64,000 nt of DNA from Streptomyces sp. NBC_00247 (lineage in GTDB: Bacteria; Actinomycetota; Actinomycetes; Streptomycetales; Streptomycetaceae), in assembly GCF_036188265.1 (NCBI RefSeq), contig NZ_CP108093.1:5795001-5859000 (forward strand). The letters are read 5' to 3'. The position numbers and the translations under genes are program-made. The notes under the pieces were generated by a model, which ran no database searches, had not been told where the DNA came from, and was given only the letters and a program-made list of their open reading frames with translations. Of the stretch, positions 30,045 through 34,910 are shown one piece after another (the first letter of the stretch is position 1; the number at the start of each line of letters is the position of its first letter).

Positions 30045-30074
30045 GACCCCGGGGAGCCCCTGGGCTCCGTCCCG

Positions 30075-30130
30075 AAGGCCCGCGGCCGGTCCTGTTCGAA
30101 TTTTCAGAACAGGACCGGCCGCGGGCCTTT
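30075..30130 (+). terminator. Terminator of the parA-scpAB-rluB operon
   Basis: AAGGCCCGCGGCCGGTCCTGTTC pairs with its exact complement across a nine-base loop (GAATTTTCA), a 23-bp stem ending in TTT. It separates the chromosome-organisation operon from the NAD-salvage operon, whose first start is 52 bases on. Confidence 0.92.
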
Positions 30131-30148
30131 CGCATGCCTGCGGATGCC

Positions 30149-30171
30149 TTTATAGTCAGAGTGACCATTAA
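30149..30171 (+). promoter_or_regulatory. Candidate NrtR operator over the pnuC leader
   Basis: TTTATAGTCA-GAG-TGACCATTAA is a 10-3-10 imperfect palindrome (8 of 10 positions matched) in an AT-rich island within GC-rich DNA. It abuts AAGGAGG, the pnuC ribosome binding site. Its AGTCA/TGAC core resembles sites described for the NAD regulator NrtR, and nrtR is the third gene of the operon. Binding here would block transcription or initiation of the whole operon. Confidence 0.68.
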
Positions 30172-30181
30172 GGAGGCGGGC

Positions 30182-30847
30182 ATGAGTCTCGCGGATGTCC
30201 TGGATCCCCTGCAGGAGCCCCTGTTCACCTGGCTGGACACGCCGGTCAGCTGGACCGAGGTGCTCGGATTCGGCAGCGGGGCGCTCTGCGTCTGGCTCGT
30301 GGTGCGCCAGCACCTGGCCAACTGGCCGGTCGGCATCGCCAACAACCTCTTCTTCGTCCTGCTGTTCGCACAGTCCGGCCTCTACGCCGACGCCGGACTC
30401 CAGATCGTCTTCATCGCCCTCGCCGCGTACGGCTGGTGGACCTGGACCCACGGGGGTGGACCAGGGGCACCCGTCCTGCCGGTGCGTGGTACGCCGCGCA
30501 CCGAAGGGGCCTGGCTGCTCGCGGCGGGGGCGGTGGGGACCCTCGCGCTGACCCTCCTGCTCTCCGGGGCCACCGACTCGACCGTTCCGTTCTGGGACGC
30601 GCTGACGACCGCGCTCTCCCTGGCGGCGACCTACGGGCAGAGCCGCAAGCGGGTCGAGTCCTGGTGGCTGTGGATCGCCGCCGACCTCGTCTACATCCCG
30701 CTCTACGCCCACAAGGGCCTGTATCTGACCTCGCTGCTGTACGTCGGCTTCCTCGCGCTCTGCGTGGCCGGGCTGCGCTCCTGGCGGCGCGACCTCGCCG
30801 AGGACACCACGGACGGTCCGGCCGCCCGCGCGGAGGTGAGGGCGTGA
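30182..30847 (+). CDS. pnuC: Nicotinamide riboside/mononucleotide transporter PnuC
   Basis: 221 residues from ATG 30182 with AAGGAGG six bases upstream. Several hydrophobic helices are visible (FGSGALCVWLVVRQHLANWP; NNLFFVLLFAQSGLYADAGL; WLLAAGAVGTLALTLLL; LYLTSLLYVGFLALCVAGL), and the PnuC-specific N-W-P-x-G and Y-x-W-W-T-W segments are present (LANWPVGIANN, AYGWWTW). PnuC carries nicotinamide riboside across the membrane by facilitated diffusion, trapped by phosphorylation. Its stop overlaps the nadR-like start, coupling uptake to the kinase. Confidence 0.93.
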   Translation: MSLADVLDPLQEPLFTWLDTPVSWTEVLGFGSGALCVWLVVRQHLANWPVGIANNLFFVLLFAQSGLYADAGLQIVFIALAAYGWWTWTHGGGPGAPVLPVRGTPRTEGAWLLAAGAVGTLALTLLLSGATDSTVPFWDALTTALSLAATYGQSRKRVESWWLWIAADLVYIPLYAHKGLYLTSLLYVGFLALCVAGLRSWRRDLAEDTTDGPAARAEVRA

Positions 30848-31923
30848 AGAAGTACGCCCACGGCCTGGTGCTCGGCAAGTTCTACCCGCCGCACGCGGGC
30901 CACCACCACCTCGTCCGTACCGCCCAGGACCGCTGCGAGCGGCTGACCGTCCTCGTCTGCGCCGCCGGTGTCGAATCGGTGCCGCTCGCCGACCGGGTCG
31001 CCTGGATGCGCGAGACGCACCCCGACGCCACGGTCGTGGGAGCCGTCGACGACATACGCATGGACGTCCACGACCCCGCGGTCTGGGACGCGCACATGGC
31101 GGTGTTCACCGCCGCCGTCCCCGAACGGGTGGACGCCGTCTTCTCCTCGGAGGCGTACGGCGACGAGCTCGCCCGGCGCTTCGGCGCCGAGCCGGTCTGC
31201 GTCGACCCGGACCGCACCGTCTTCCCGGTCTCCGGCACGGCGGTCCGCGAGGACCCCGTCGCCTGTTGGGACTTCCTGGAGCCGGCCGTACGCGCCGCGC
31301 TCACCCGCCGGGTCGTCGTGCTCGGCGCGGAGTCCACCGGCACCACCACCCTGACGCTCGCCCTGGCCGAGCACTACCGGCGGCGCGGCGGGGTGTGGGC
31401 CCGGACCCGCGGCGTGCCGGAGTACGGGCGGGAGTTCAGCGAACAGAAACTCGCCGCCCTGCGCGCCGACCACCCCGGCGCGCAGTGGGAGGACGTCGTC
31501 TTCACCACCGGTGACTTCCCGCTGATCGCCGCCGTCCAGAACGACCGCGAGGAGGCCGCCGCGCGGACCGGTTCGCCGGTGCTCTTCTGCGACACCGACT
31601 CCTTCGCCACCACCGTCTGGCACGAGCGGTACGTCGGCGGGCGCAATCCGCGCGTCGAGGCCACCGCGGACCGTGTCGACCACCACCTGTGGCTGCTCAC
31701 CGACCACGAAGGTGTCCCCTTCGAGGACGACGGACTGCGCGACGGCGAGGAGCTGCGGCCCTGGATGACGAGCCGCTTCCGCGCCGAAATCGCCCGCACC
31801 GGGCGGAGGTTCGTGGAAGTCACCGGCTCCCGCGAACAGCGGCTCGCCACCGCGGTCGCCGCCGTCGACGAACTCCTCGCCACCGGCTGGCACTTCAACC
31901 CGCCACTCCCGGAGCGACGATGA
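30844..31923 (+). CDS. nadR: NadR-like bifunctional NMN adenylyltransferase / ribosylnicotinamide kinase
   Basis: 359 residues from GTG 30844, overlapping the pnuC stop (GTGA). The N-terminal nucleotidylyltransferase half has GKFYPPHAGHHHLVRTA (HxGH motif near residue 21) and VSGTAVREDP near 128. The C-terminal kinase half begins VVVLGAESTGTTTLTLALA near 159; this is the P-loop position, but the Walker A Lys is Thr (codon ACC). Later kinase motifs CDTDSFATTVWHERY are intact. It would phosphorylate nicotinamide riboside and adenylate NMN to NAD. No N-terminal DNA-binding domain, unlike enterobacterial NadR, fitting regulation by NrtR instead. Stop overlaps nrtR (ATGA). Confidence 0.88.
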   Translation: MKKYAHGLVLGKFYPPHAGHHHLVRTAQDRCERLTVLVCAAGVESVPLADRVAWMRETHPDATVVGAVDDIRMDVHDPAVWDAHMAVFTAAVPERVDAVFSSEAYGDELARRFGAEPVCVDPDRTVFPVSGTAVREDPVACWDFLEPAVRAALTRRVVVLGAESTGTTTLTLALAEHYRRRGGVWARTRGVPEYGREFSEQKLAALRADHPGAQWEDVVFTTGDFPLIAAVQNDREEAAARTGSPVLFCDTDSFATTVWHERYVGGRNPRVEATADRVDHHLWLLTDHEGVPFEDDGLRDGEELRPWMTSRFRAEIARTGRRFVEVTGSREQRLATAVAAVDELLATGWHFNPPLPERR

Positions 31924-32687
31924 ACTCCCGTGCACAGGGGGTCGCAGGAGCCCCCGAGGGGTACGACCCGTACGCCTTCACCCCGTTCGCCGTCACCGTC
32001 GACCTCGCCGTCTTCACCGTCCGCGAAGGACGGCTGCACGTGCTGCTGGTGGAACGCGGCGAGGAACCGTACAGGGGGCGCTGGGCGCTTCCGGGCGGTT
32101 TCGTCGCCCCCCGGGAGTCCGCCCCGCAGGCCGCCCGCCGCGAGCTGGCCGAGGAGACCGGCCTGGACGAGGACACCGTCTGCGAGGTGCACCTCGAACA
32201 ACTGCGCACCTACACCGACCCGGACCGCGACCCGAGGATGCGGGTCGTCTCCGTCGCGTACGCCGCGCTCCTTCCGGACCTCCCCGAACCGCGCGGCGGA
32301 GGCGACGCGGTCAGTGCCCGCTGGTGGGTCTTCGGCGAGGGCGGCACCGGGGCGCCCGGGCCGCTCGCCTTCGACCACGACACCATCCTCGCCGACGCCC
32401 ACGACCGCGTCGGATCCAAGCTCGAATACACCTGCCTGGCAACGGCGTTCTGCCCCGCCGAGTTCACCCTCGGCGAGCTTCAGCAGGTCTACGAAACCGT
32501 CTGGGGCACCGCACTCGACCGCCCCAACTTCCGGCGCAAGGTCCTCGCCACCTCCGGCTTCGTCGAAGCCGTCGAAGGGCCGCCGCGCCGCACCGGGGGG
32601 CGGGGGAAACCCGCCGCCCTCTACCGGGCGGGCACGGCCACCGTCCTGCACCCGCCGCTCCTGCGACCGGAAGGAAGAACCCCATGA
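31920..32687 (+). CDS. nrtR: NAD-responsive NUDIX transcriptional regulator NrtR
   Basis: 255 residues from ATG 31920 (GGAG five bases upstream, ATGA overlap with the previous gene). Residues about 20-165 form a Nudix domain with a complete box, GGFVAPRESAPQAARRELAEETGL, retaining the catalytic R-E-L-x-E-E; many NrtR proteins have lost these, so residual hydrolase activity is possible. Residues about 180-235 form a winged helix (FTLGELQQVYETVWGTALDR then NFRRKVLATSGFV). NrtR represses NAD genes and is released by ADP-ribose or NAD. It sits inside the operon it probably controls. Confidence 0.9.
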   Translation: MNSRAQGVAGAPEGYDPYAFTPFAVTVDLAVFTVREGRLHVLLVERGEEPYRGRWALPGGFVAPRESAPQAARRELAEETGLDEDTVCEVHLEQLRTYTDPDRDPRMRVVSVAYAALLPDLPEPRGGGDAVSARWWVFGEGGTGAPGPLAFDHDTILADAHDRVGSKLEYTCLATAFCPAEFTLGELQQVYETVWGTALDRPNFRRKVLATSGFVEAVEGPPRRTGGRGKPAALYRAGTATVLHPPLLRPEGRTP

Positions 32688-33709
32688 CCGTCGCCACCAG
32701 GACCCGCACCAAACAGGCCGCCACCGGCTCCCTCGTGGGTCTCGCCCTCGGTGACGCGCTGGGCTTTCCGACCGAGTTCAACGACGTGCCCGCCATCCTC
32801 GCCAAGTGCGGTCCGTGGCGCGGGATGGAGCTCCCCCGGCCCGCGCTCGTCACCGACGACACCCAGATGACACTCGCCCTCGGACGGGGCATCCGCACCG
32901 CCATGGACCGGGGCCTGCTCACCGGGCTCCGGCTGGCCCGCCCGGTCCGGGAAGAGTTCGTCGACTGGTACCACTCGCCGGAGAACAACCGCGCCCCCGG
33001 CCGTACCTGCATGGTCGCCTGCCGGCTCCTCGACAGCGACCGCCCCTGGCAGGAAGCGAGTCAGACCGGCTCGAAGGGGTGCGGCGCCAACATGCGCGTC
33101 GCCCCCGTCGGGCTGGTCCCCGGACTCAGCGACGAACAGCGCGCCGGCGCCGCCCAGCTCCAGGCCGCCCTGACCCACGGCCACCCCACCGCACTGGCCG
33201 CCTCCGACCTGATGGCCCGCGCCGTCCACCTGCTCGCCAGGGGCGCCGAACCCCTCGGCCTCGTCGGACAACTGCGCAGCTACGCGTACGAGAACCGGAG
33301 CCGCTACCACGAGCGCTGGCTCGGCGACCTCTGGCGCCACACCCACGACGCCTCCGCCCAGTCCTACATCCAGCGCGGCTGGGACGAGTGCCTGGACGTC
33401 CTGACCCGCGTCCAGGAAGCACTGCGCCACCCCTCCCCGGAGACCGACCCTTGCGAGACCACCGGGGACGGCTGGATCGCCGAGGAGGCCCTGGCGACCG
33501 CCCTGCACTGCTTCCTGCTCTTCCCCGAGGAGCCCGTCACCGCCCTGCGCAGGGCCGCCTGTACCCGGGGCGACTCCGACTCGCTGGCCTGCCTCACCGG
33601 GGCACTCGCCGGCGCCCACCTGGGAGCCTCGGCCTGGCCCAAGGAGTGGACCGAGCGGATCGAGTACCGGAGCGACCTGCTGTCGCTGGGGGCGCTCTGG
33701 GATGCTTGA
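32684..33709 (+). CDS. ADP-ribosylglycohydrolase (DraG-like)
   Basis: 341 residues from ATG 32684 with GGAAGGAAG upstream and ATGA overlap with nrtR. The N-terminal GSLVGLALGDALGFPTEF, the metal-binding LVTDDTQMTLALG near residue 60 and the C-terminal GDSDSLACLTGALAGAHLG near 297 are the three metal/ADP-ribose motifs of the ARH/DraG family; TDDT and D-x-D residues are intact. It removes ADP-ribose from proteins, nucleic acids or small molecules, releasing the ligand that NrtR senses. Its place as last gene of an NrtR-type operon therefore makes a feedback loop plausible. Confidence 0.92.
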   Translation: MTVATRTRTKQAATGSLVGLALGDALGFPTEFNDVPAILAKCGPWRGMELPRPALVTDDTQMTLALGRGIRTAMDRGLLTGLRLARPVREEFVDWYHSPENNRAPGRTCMVACRLLDSDRPWQEASQTGSKGCGANMRVAPVGLVPGLSDEQRAGAAQLQAALTHGHPTALAASDLMARAVHLLARGAEPLGLVGQLRSYAYENRSRYHERWLGDLWRHTHDASAQSYIQRGWDECLDVLTRVQEALRHPSPETDPCETTGDGWIAEEALATALHCFLLFPEEPVTALRRAACTRGDSDSLACLTGALAGAHLGASAWPKEWTERIEYRSDLLSLGALWDA

Positions 33710-34026: not shown

Positions 34027-34725
34027 TCAGCCGTCCTTCAGCGCCGAGGCCCGCCGGGTCCGTACGAGGAACTCCTCGACCCGGGCCCGGTCGGGGCGGT
34101 CCGGCAGCGGGGAACGGCCGAGGGCCTCCTCGCACTCCCCGGCCAGCCGCGTCATCCGGCGTTCGACCTCCGGCCACTCCACCTCGCCCCGCTTCACCGC
34201 GAGCAACTCCTCCCGCCGCTCACCGACGTCGATCGTCAGCGCCCCCGTGCGCACCAGGTCCCCGGCGGACATCAGCAGCCGCAGCAGATGCATGGCGTTC
34301 TTCCATCGCGGCGCACCGTGCGTCCGCTCGTCGGCCTCCAGCTTCCGTCGCTGGCCCGTCGCGTACCGGGTGAAGGTGGTGTACGCCTCGCGGGACAGGA
34401 AGGCGTCCCGCAGCGCGAGGAGCTCGCGGCCGGTGTCGTCGATCCGCTCCACCAGCGGGGAGTGCAGGCACTCCAGGACGTTCGGGTCGGCGCGCAGGGC
34501 CAGTTCGCAGAAACGCTCCAGCTCCCAGGAGAACTGCTCCGGCGCCGGGCCGTCCACATGCGTCGGCGGCTTCTCGAACCGCCAGAACGAGGCGGTCGGG
34601 GCGAGGAACACCCCACGCCGGTCGGTGTCGCTCCCCTCGGTGGCCAGCCCGAACGCCCGCGAGCCCATCACGCAGGAGTAGACCGTGTGGTCGCGGACGA
34701 GTGATTCGGCATCGGGGCTGGCCAT
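34027..34725 (-). CDS. Pol-beta superfamily nucleotidyltransferase, RlaP-like
   Basis: 232 residues from ATG 34725. The motif CVMGSRAFGLATEGSDTDRRGVF (residues about 19-41) gives Gly-Ser and the Asp-x-Asp pair of nucleotidyltransferases; SFWRFEKPPTHVDG and the ELERFCELALRADPNVLECL helix match the RNA-ligase-associated (RlaP) branch, with a helical C-terminal half. Some relatives sit beside RNA ligases or phage-type RNA repair; none is seen here. It is divergent from the HEAT-like gene (186 bp apart). The substrate is unknown, and the start lacks an obvious ribosome binding site. Confidence 0.8.
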   Translation of the reverse strand: MASPDAESLVRDHTVYSCVMGSRAFGLATEGSDTDRRGVFLAPTASFWRFEKPPTHVDGPAPEQFSWELERFCELALRADPNVLECLHSPLVERIDDTGRELLALRDAFLSREAYTTFTRYATGQRRKLEADERTHGAPRWKNAMHLLRLLMSAGDLVRTGALTIDVGERREELLAVKRGEVEWPEVERRMTRLAGECEEALGRSPLPDRPDRARVEEFLVRTRRASALKDG

Positions 34726-34910
34726 GGGCGTGAGGCTACGCGGGGAAAGGCGCGTGCTGCCGCGAATTTTCCTTGTGCCGGTGCCGGGCGGAGTGCGAAC
34801 ATCGCACCTCGTCGGCAGGGAGCCGACCGCCCCCGACGCCGACGGGGACGCCCGTCCGCACAGGCGGACGACAGAGAACCGGCGGAGCATCCGCAGAGAA
34901 GAAGACCCGC

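Follow-up and report, generated by a model that had tools for sequence, protein, structure and literature searches.

A four-gene NrtR operon of Streptomyces with a palindromic operator that varies in step with its putative repressor

In Streptomyces sp. NBC_00247, two genes for the salvage of nicotinamide adenine dinucleotide (NAD), a gene for a Nudix-type regulator, nrtR, and a gene for an adenosine diphosphate (ADP)-ribosylglycohydrolase (ARH) follow one another behind a palindrome. This locus raises the question of which regulator acts on it, through which site and in response to which signal. The window, that is, the whole stretch of 64,000 nucleotides (nt) analysed here (G000:C1:5795001-5859000), belongs to a genome made up of a single contig of 7,336,920 bases; positions are those of the window unless a contig is named. 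Our answer, to which we give a probability of about 0.78, is that the four genes would form an operon repressed by its own product, NrtR-A, via an operator of purine (R) type, and that a paralogue, NrtR-B, would read a pyrimidine (Y) type of the same site. The NrtR operon is genuine and its operator well supported; as such, the locus is of a known kind. The argument is built on the following elements:

30149..30171, no strand: candidate NrtR-A operator, TTTATAGTCA-GAG-TGACCATTAA, unique in the genome, conserved, and co-switching with the regulator
30151..30156, plus strand: -10-like hexamer TATAGT within the left arm of the operator, pointed to by the TTG spacing in 57 related loci
30182..30847, plus strand: pnuC, transporter of nicotinamide riboside (NR) or nicotinamide mononucleotide (NMN) (PF04973, 1.7e-57; TIGR01528, 93.2 bits against a cut-off of 42.45)
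30844..31923, plus strand: nadR-like gene, NMN adenylyltransferase and ribosylnicotinamide kinase (TIGR01526, 4.3e-56, under its cut-off; PF13521)
31920..32687, plus strand: nrtR (NrtR-A), Nudix domain and NrtR winged helix, proposed autorepressor (PF00293, 1.5e-20; PF21906, 3.4e-16; PDB 3gz5, 5bs6)
32684..33709, plus strand: ADP-ribosylglycohydrolase of the ARH/DraG family (PF03747, 3.8e-68; PDB relatives DraG 2woe and ARH3)

The two arms of the palindrome pair at 8 of 10 positions. Searched for with at most three mismatches, TTATAGTCNNNNTGACTATWA occurs at a single place in the 7,336,920 bases, 30149-30171, and its reversed control nowhere. A related palindromic pattern gives one match in the window (two mismatches), against 0.03 expected in shuffled sequences. 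Sites were scored on a scale to 34 with a cut-off of 27, a score that was not reached in any of 1220 dinucleotide resamplings of sequence upstream of related loci. The palindrome stands ahead of pnuC in all 27 pnuC-led loci of the genus sample (76 genomes, own included) and in 48/48 pnuC-led loci among 70 further loci. The latter are what is left of 80 loci fetched with the closest ARH relatives (78 from Streptomyces, two from Kitasatospora) after removal of 10 duplicates of the genus sample. The palindrome picked out in an earlier, sequence-only reading of this DNA is real, unique in the genome and conserved in relatives, and the conservation ahead of pnuC on which that reading had staked its proposal is present. 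It had also thought of finding the same palindrome before nadABC. The palindrome is nowhere else in the genome at up to three mismatches; nadA has CGTCA-N4-GACG sites, and nadB and nadC were not searched for. With one site in its own genome, the palindrome was also rejected as one of the many sites of a global regulon.

How could such a site act? It had been proposed to cover the first ribosome binding site. The AAGGAGG at 30170-30176 shares two bases with the palindrome, an overlap on which masking was rejected, and what is covered instead is the -10-like TATAGT. Among 57 related loci having the site, a TTG lies upstream at 17 or 18 nt in 37, at 15 nt in seven, at 20 nt in three and at 16 or 19 nt in none; the window's own promoter shows no TTG at the expected -35 spacing. 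Since the operator covers the -10 box, it most likely acts by covering that box. A second, overlapping site lies 15 or 16 base pairs (bp) away in six loci (G001, G022, G024, G056, G065, and G077).

The surroundings of the site vary among relatives. Within the genus sample, ARH is present in 61 of the 76 genomes and NrtR-A adjoins it in 50 of these 61 loci, no NrtR-A being found in the 15 genomes without ARH. The usual slot runs rluB - [pnuC - nadR - nrtR] - ARH - RlaP, the last on the opposite strand. The 61 stretches contain rluB in 58 cases (sometimes a few kilobases off), adjacent nrtR in 50, nadR in 28, pnuC in 27 and, following ARH in the opposite orientation, RlaP in 51; some of the 61 end early. 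Where pnuC is missing, the palindrome sits before nrtR (before nadR in G041), G044 excepted, whose contig begins there. The cassette is occasionally seen to decay: nrtR of G043 has an in-frame stop (G043:C1:1937287-1938018), and the ARH of G067 is truncated, with a stop (G067:C1:397078-397746). The NrtR of G043 was omitted from protein alignments and kept among the 50 loci; the ARH of G067 (211 residues) was left out of the ARH tree described below.

The palindrome is tied to NrtR-A by one base per half-site, located 6 bp from the centre and read on each half-site as a purine (R) or a pyrimidine (Y). The two discriminating positions of the window are 30154, an A, and 30166, a C that reads as G on the opposite strand. 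With NrtR-A present, 48 of the 50 genus loci have R on both arms, G022 being mixed and G044 lying at a contig edge. The 70 further loci have R on both arms without exception (70/70); they cannot test the Y side because they were drawn by similarity to this ARH. With NrtR-A absent, 8 of the 11 genus ARH loci have Y on both arms and three have no site (G009, G042, and G067 with its truncated ARH). The association of R or Y with the presence of NrtR-A gives a Fisher p of 7e-10, relatedness ignored. In a wider set of 392 genus genomes, 17 contain the exact Y palindrome and none its reversed control. It lies between rluB and ARH in 16 and before pnuC-nadR in one (G407); 6 of the 17 genomes overlap the 8 Y loci. 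No nrtR was found in any of these 17 loci, nor within 10 kilobases in G407, and no NrtR above 65% identity in any of the 17 genomes. Indeed, the 12 that were searched gave none above 64% identity, 10 having NrtR-B, and the 5 remaining hold NrtR-B only, according to the genus survey. Five changes of the Y label are required on the ARH tree, at least four of them forced by well-supported branches. The operator, its association with NrtR-A and the co-switch are supported by sequence comparison, and comparative genomics argues strongly for the NrtR-type operon with a genuine operator that had been proposed at the outset.

The putative recognition helices of the two regulators differ as well. Residues 200-205 of NrtR-A read D-R-P-N-F-R in 47 of 49 sequences, the exceptions being G044 (DPPNFR, its site at the contig edge) and G075 (DPANFR). 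The NrtR-B helix reads D-P-R-N-F-H in 13/13 aligned sequences (8 from the genus and 5 from other families, a subset of those existing) and in 18/18 at the loci read, 8 of them repeated. G025, from another family, combines a DRPNFR helix with an R-type site ahead of pnuC. To map the contact residues, the sequences were aligned to BtAraR. Passages on its DNA-bound structure report that, counting from the centre, base 7 is contacted by Lys179 and Arg180 intercalates between bases 6 and 5 (PMC4666351); these residues align to NrtR-A residues 201 and 202, respectively. The causal residues are a prediction, since NrtR-A and NrtR-B also differ at many other positions. The principle of helix-operator matching is already known from the reported correlation of recognition-helix residues 1, 2, and 6 with operator bases in helix-turn-helix (HTH) families including NrtR (part of PMC5045206).

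NrtR-B, 62% identical to NrtR-A, is encoded in the own genome at C1:1362808-1363560 next to a DUF4192 gene. It is found in 72 of the 76 genus genomes at the cut-off used, in two pieces in G015. A Y-type site, TTATCGTCAGG-N2-GACGACTATGAT, stands immediately before the NrtR-B start in 18/18 loci read. Upstream of nadA in the own genome lies a set of CGTCA-N4-GACG sites fitting NrtR-B, which are variants rather than full copies of the palindrome. Among the best-matching nadA upstream regions (30 of 74 genomes with nadA), [CT]GTCA-N4-GAC[AG] is present ahead of nadA in three copies in 29 and in two copies in one, against 0.015 per resampled region, and the reversed core gives 0. The nadA sites score 26-27 of 34; such scores appear in 2/600 resamplings, and scores of 25-27 appear inside rluB. 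Because the score alone fails to single these sites out, it is the repeat of the motif that supports them. NrtR-B is probably the controller of nadA, and we infer that it represses both nadA and itself. The order-level relatives add a Y-type site before pnuC in G039, another in G033 before a gene that looks, by eye only, like one for nicotinate phosphoribosyltransferase, and further ones next to a PhoH-like ATPase gene. A search of the own genome for Y-type sites with three mismatches gave 8 and 13 strand matches; since the controls gave 2 and 1, several of the weak matches are attributed to chance.

Taken together, NrtR-A is best read as a local autorepressor, whose binding, repression, ligand and any hydrolysis we infer from these comparisons. 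The four genes would be transcribed as one operon; their promoter would be of sigma-70 type, with its -10 box within the palindrome. Dimers of NrtR-A would bind the palindrome (half-site TTTAT-R-GTCA, R being a purine) and block the promoter, thereby repressing their own operon, with apparently no other target in this genome having an equally good site. ADP-ribose or a close derivative, arising from the breakdown of NAD or of ADP-ribosylated targets and in part via the ARH of the operon, would loosen NrtR-A, so that NR/NMN uptake, rebuilding of NAD and removal of ADP-ribose would increase. NrtR-B would read the Y site and control itself and probably nadA; in genomes lacking NrtR-A it would also take over ARH or, in a single case, pnuC-nadR.

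Enzymes of the ARH family release free ADP-ribose. The ARH of the operon would do so too, and NrtR-A may both bind and hydrolyse the product. The Nudix box, called complete in the sequence-only reading, is indeed so in 49 of the 50 NrtR-A, the remaining one being interrupted by a stop, and in 13/13 NrtR-B, and an intact box as something special to this gene was rejected for that reason. The equivalents Y15, R46, and R106 of the SoNrtR residues that contact ADP-ribose, Tyr10, Arg41, and Arg98 (in part of PMC4666351), are kept in 49/49 NrtR-A and 13/13 NrtR-B (62/62). As the box is intact in both paralogues, ligand hydrolysis is possible for both; MsNrtR is described as being without hydrolase activity (in part of PMC6800001). 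The same passages on SoNrtR describe the box as impaired in the NrtR regulators that act on NAD metabolism (PMC4666351), and the box is not intact in SoNrtR and BtAraR in our alignment, unlike in NrtR-A and NrtR-B. No impaired box was found among the NrtR-A and NrtR-B sequences aligned, and in our reading such impairment is a family tendency rather than a requirement.

Several observations weigh against this autorepressor reading. Concerning the site, chance-like matches scoring 27 lie within the rluB coding sequence of G048, G058, and G087, G009 and G042 carry ARH without a site, the Y site of G014 is poor on one arm (29 of 34), and the weakest site among the NrtR-A loci, that of G075, has a score of only 27. 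Concerning the regulators, NrtR-A misses the cut-off of the NCBIfam NrtR equivalog NF050029 (123.9 against 400 bits), and what is claimed here is family membership and not that equivalog. The Y-site genomes G017 and G118 gave no NrtR in assemblies of more than 1100 contigs each. The tree is one of the ARH gene only, with bootstrap not settled and a long branch for G010. Finally, the related regulator of Corynebacterium glutamicum is described as responding to NAD, and not as coming off its DNA with ADP-ribose (parts of PMC6800001 and PMC4666351).

The ADP-ribose circuit is plausible. It is largely in print as a prediction, since Iyer et al. (2022) propose that an ADP-ribosylglycohydrolase (ARG in their terms) and a Nudix repressor constitute a circuit that is induced by ADP-ribose, the Nudix domain of the regulator taking part in the processing of this ligand (part of PMC9503650). 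This brings in the rival that survives best, although we hold it unlikely: a de-ADP-ribosylating anti-phage system of that kind, to which salvage genes are attached, and not a system of NAD housekeeping. ARH and the Nudix regulator are adjacent in 15 of the 17 loci read first as well as in the 50 of 61 genus loci given above, and 22 of the 50 loci with NrtR-A lack pnuC-nadR, so that ARH-nrtR is the core. The operon and its two flanking genes show an ARG beside a Nudix transcription factor with no coupled ADP-ribosyltransferase, none being found among the four genes, and such actinobacterial operons with ADP-ribose as inducer are among the predictions of the cited passages (PMC9503650). However, neither phosphatase or chaperone partners nor a Macro, NADAR or nuclease partner was found among the four genes, rluB and RlaP, and the PADLOC models match none of pnuC, nadR, ARH and RlaP and the NrtR Nudix domain in part only. 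Phosphatases occur in little over 55% of ARG neighbourhoods (part of PMC9503650), so that a missing phosphatase does not exclude an ARG system. The linked pnuC-nadR and the paralogue at nadA suggest instead NAD supply. Compared with the ARG-centred systems, the present operon is alike in having an ARG beside a Nudix repressor with ADP-ribose induction and processing proposed, and differs in having no phosphatase, chaperone or effector genes and in the NAD salvage genes that join it in about half of the genus loci.

A somewhat less probable alternative is that the co-switch reflects the transfer of whole rluB-ARH blocks together with their operator, and not selection for another repressor. Being neighbours, the operator and ARH would be transferred jointly, and the tree that counts the changes is of ARH only. 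Nevertheless, the changes are nested among rows bearing NrtR-A (G017 by G043; G003, G016, and G020 by G049), the Y site is also found without NrtR-A at a different target, pnuC-nadR of G407, and the contact residues of the regulators differ in step. That another regulator binds the palindrome, or that it is a mere symmetric promoter element with NrtR-A in the operon by chance, is very improbable: the site does overlap promoter-like sequence and its binding by NrtR-A is a prediction, but in several lineages the base at ±6 goes with whether or not NrtR-A is there, and the Y type precedes the NrtR-B gene itself wherever that locus was read.

The autorepressor reading may be extended, tentatively and against the odds as we see them. 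The two NrtR would be insulated from each other by one bp per half-site, via an exchange of RP to PR in the helix; ARH would have been passed repeatedly, by co-switch, between the global NrtR-B circuit and the self-contained NrtR-A circuit; and each regulator might destroy its own inducer and thereby reset.

The operon can also be placed among characterised regulators. NrtR of the SoNrtR, Streptococcus suis and Mycobacterium smegmatis type are alike in their Nudix domain and winged helix, in a palindromic operator at NAD genes and in their ADP-ribose contacts, and the S. suis nadR-pnuC-nrtR cluster shows the same linkage to nadR and pnuC (part of PMC6800001). In contrast, the Nudix box is intact here, the operon includes ARH, and two paralogues have different operators; the operator itself is TTTATAGTCA-N3-TGACTATAAA as compared with GTTTTCGA-N7-TCGAAAAC in M. 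smegmatis. NdnR of C. glutamicum and MsNrtR control genes of de novo NAD synthesis, as NrtR-B probably does at nadA. However, NdnR is reported with NAD as its ligand, and MsNrtR lies beside nadABC whereas NrtR-B lies beside a DUF4192 gene. BtAraR (PDB 5bs6 and others) shares the family fold and the geometry of the recognition helix, and differs in sensing arabinose, in having lost the Nudix box and in controlling sugar genes. Streptomyces NrtR sites may already be included in the NrtR regulons of Rodionov 2008, which was outside the scope of our literature search; in what was searched, mostly at title level, neither NAD salvage and ARH under a self-contained NrtR nor an operator split between paralogues at one bp per half-site was found. 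The locus is a clean natural example of a repressor paralogue and an operator that vary together across several lineages, and few residues and one base pair are the candidates for specificity. In a genus known for its antibiotics, it links NAD uptake with the removal of ADP-ribose, and it raises the question of whether a transcription factor whose Nudix site is intact can turn over its own signal.

As for the genes themselves, Pfam and NCBIfam searches bear out the identities, order and coordinates first assigned to pnuC, the nadR-like gene, nrtR and ARH. The last three are also backed by PDB relatives, NrtR-A aligning to PDB 3gz5 at 5.4e-28 over residues 14-237. The 4-bp overlaps that had been noted at every junction are there (GTGA at 30844-30847, ATGA at 31920-31923, ATGA at 32684-32687) and are kept in the genus survey in 27/27 pnuC/nadR, 26/28 nadR/nrtR and 46/50 nrtR/ARH loci, which suggests strict translational coupling. 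HxGH and SxTxxR, which we take to be the adenylyltransferase motifs of NadR, appear as GKFYPPHAGH, or variants of one to two residues, and as PVSGTAVR, each in 28/28 sequences. The NadR match begins at residue 6, which leaves no room for an N-terminal HTH. The Walker-A lysine was not found in the kinase domain of the window's NadR, where the P-loop reads GAESTGTTT with Thr in the place of Lys; GAES[TS]GTTT is present in 28/28 genus sequences and GAESTGTTT in G025 and G039 from other families, and two PDB relatives of this domain show GK. NR imported by PnuC would need this lysine-less kinase. In ARH, [TS]DDTQ and GDSDS, presumably the metal-site motifs of the ARH/DraG family, occur in 60 of 61 sequences (the exception being the truncated G067) and in 61/61, respectively, the final Ser of GDSDS standing where DraG and ARH3 alignments have Thr.

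Two further features flank the operon:

30074..30130, no strand: very strong terminator-like hairpin between rluB and pnuC, with TTT after it (fold of 30060-30140: -60.6 kcal/mol, z -9.19)
34027..34836, minus strand: RlaP-like nucleotidyltransferase, a convergent conserved neighbour outside the operon, on the opposite strand after ARH (PF10127, 1.8e-30)

The hairpin, matched in stability by 0/200 shuffles of the folded region, sets the operon apart from the upstream rluB. Its stem of about 24 pairs, immediately after rluB, is far stronger than a terminator requires. The RlaP-like gene, of an RNA-repair type, is a frequent convergent neighbour of ARH, and a tie to ADP-ribose or to RNA ends is possible.

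Other palindromes and regulators were met in passing. Two CGTC-type palindromes about 45 bp apart lie upstream of an SPFH/Band_7 gene (G000:C1:57239-57304; L090, L104), and among the matches listed, pairs of similar sites 33-34 bp apart occur in many other genomes. In L062-L064, L066 and L068-L071, from other families, a TTATCGTC-type palindrome adjoins a gene for a PhoH-like ATPase (Pfam check limited to L062), together with a conserved gene lacking a Pfam match and an adjoining second similar site. Finally, a third NrtR clade of few genomes (L056-L058, about 55% identical), left out of the comparison of NrtR-A with NrtR-B, has the helix LDPSNFRRKI in L056 and LDIRNFYRKV in L058, and in G011 a palindrome of TTATGGTT type lies upstream at a distance of about 100 bp.

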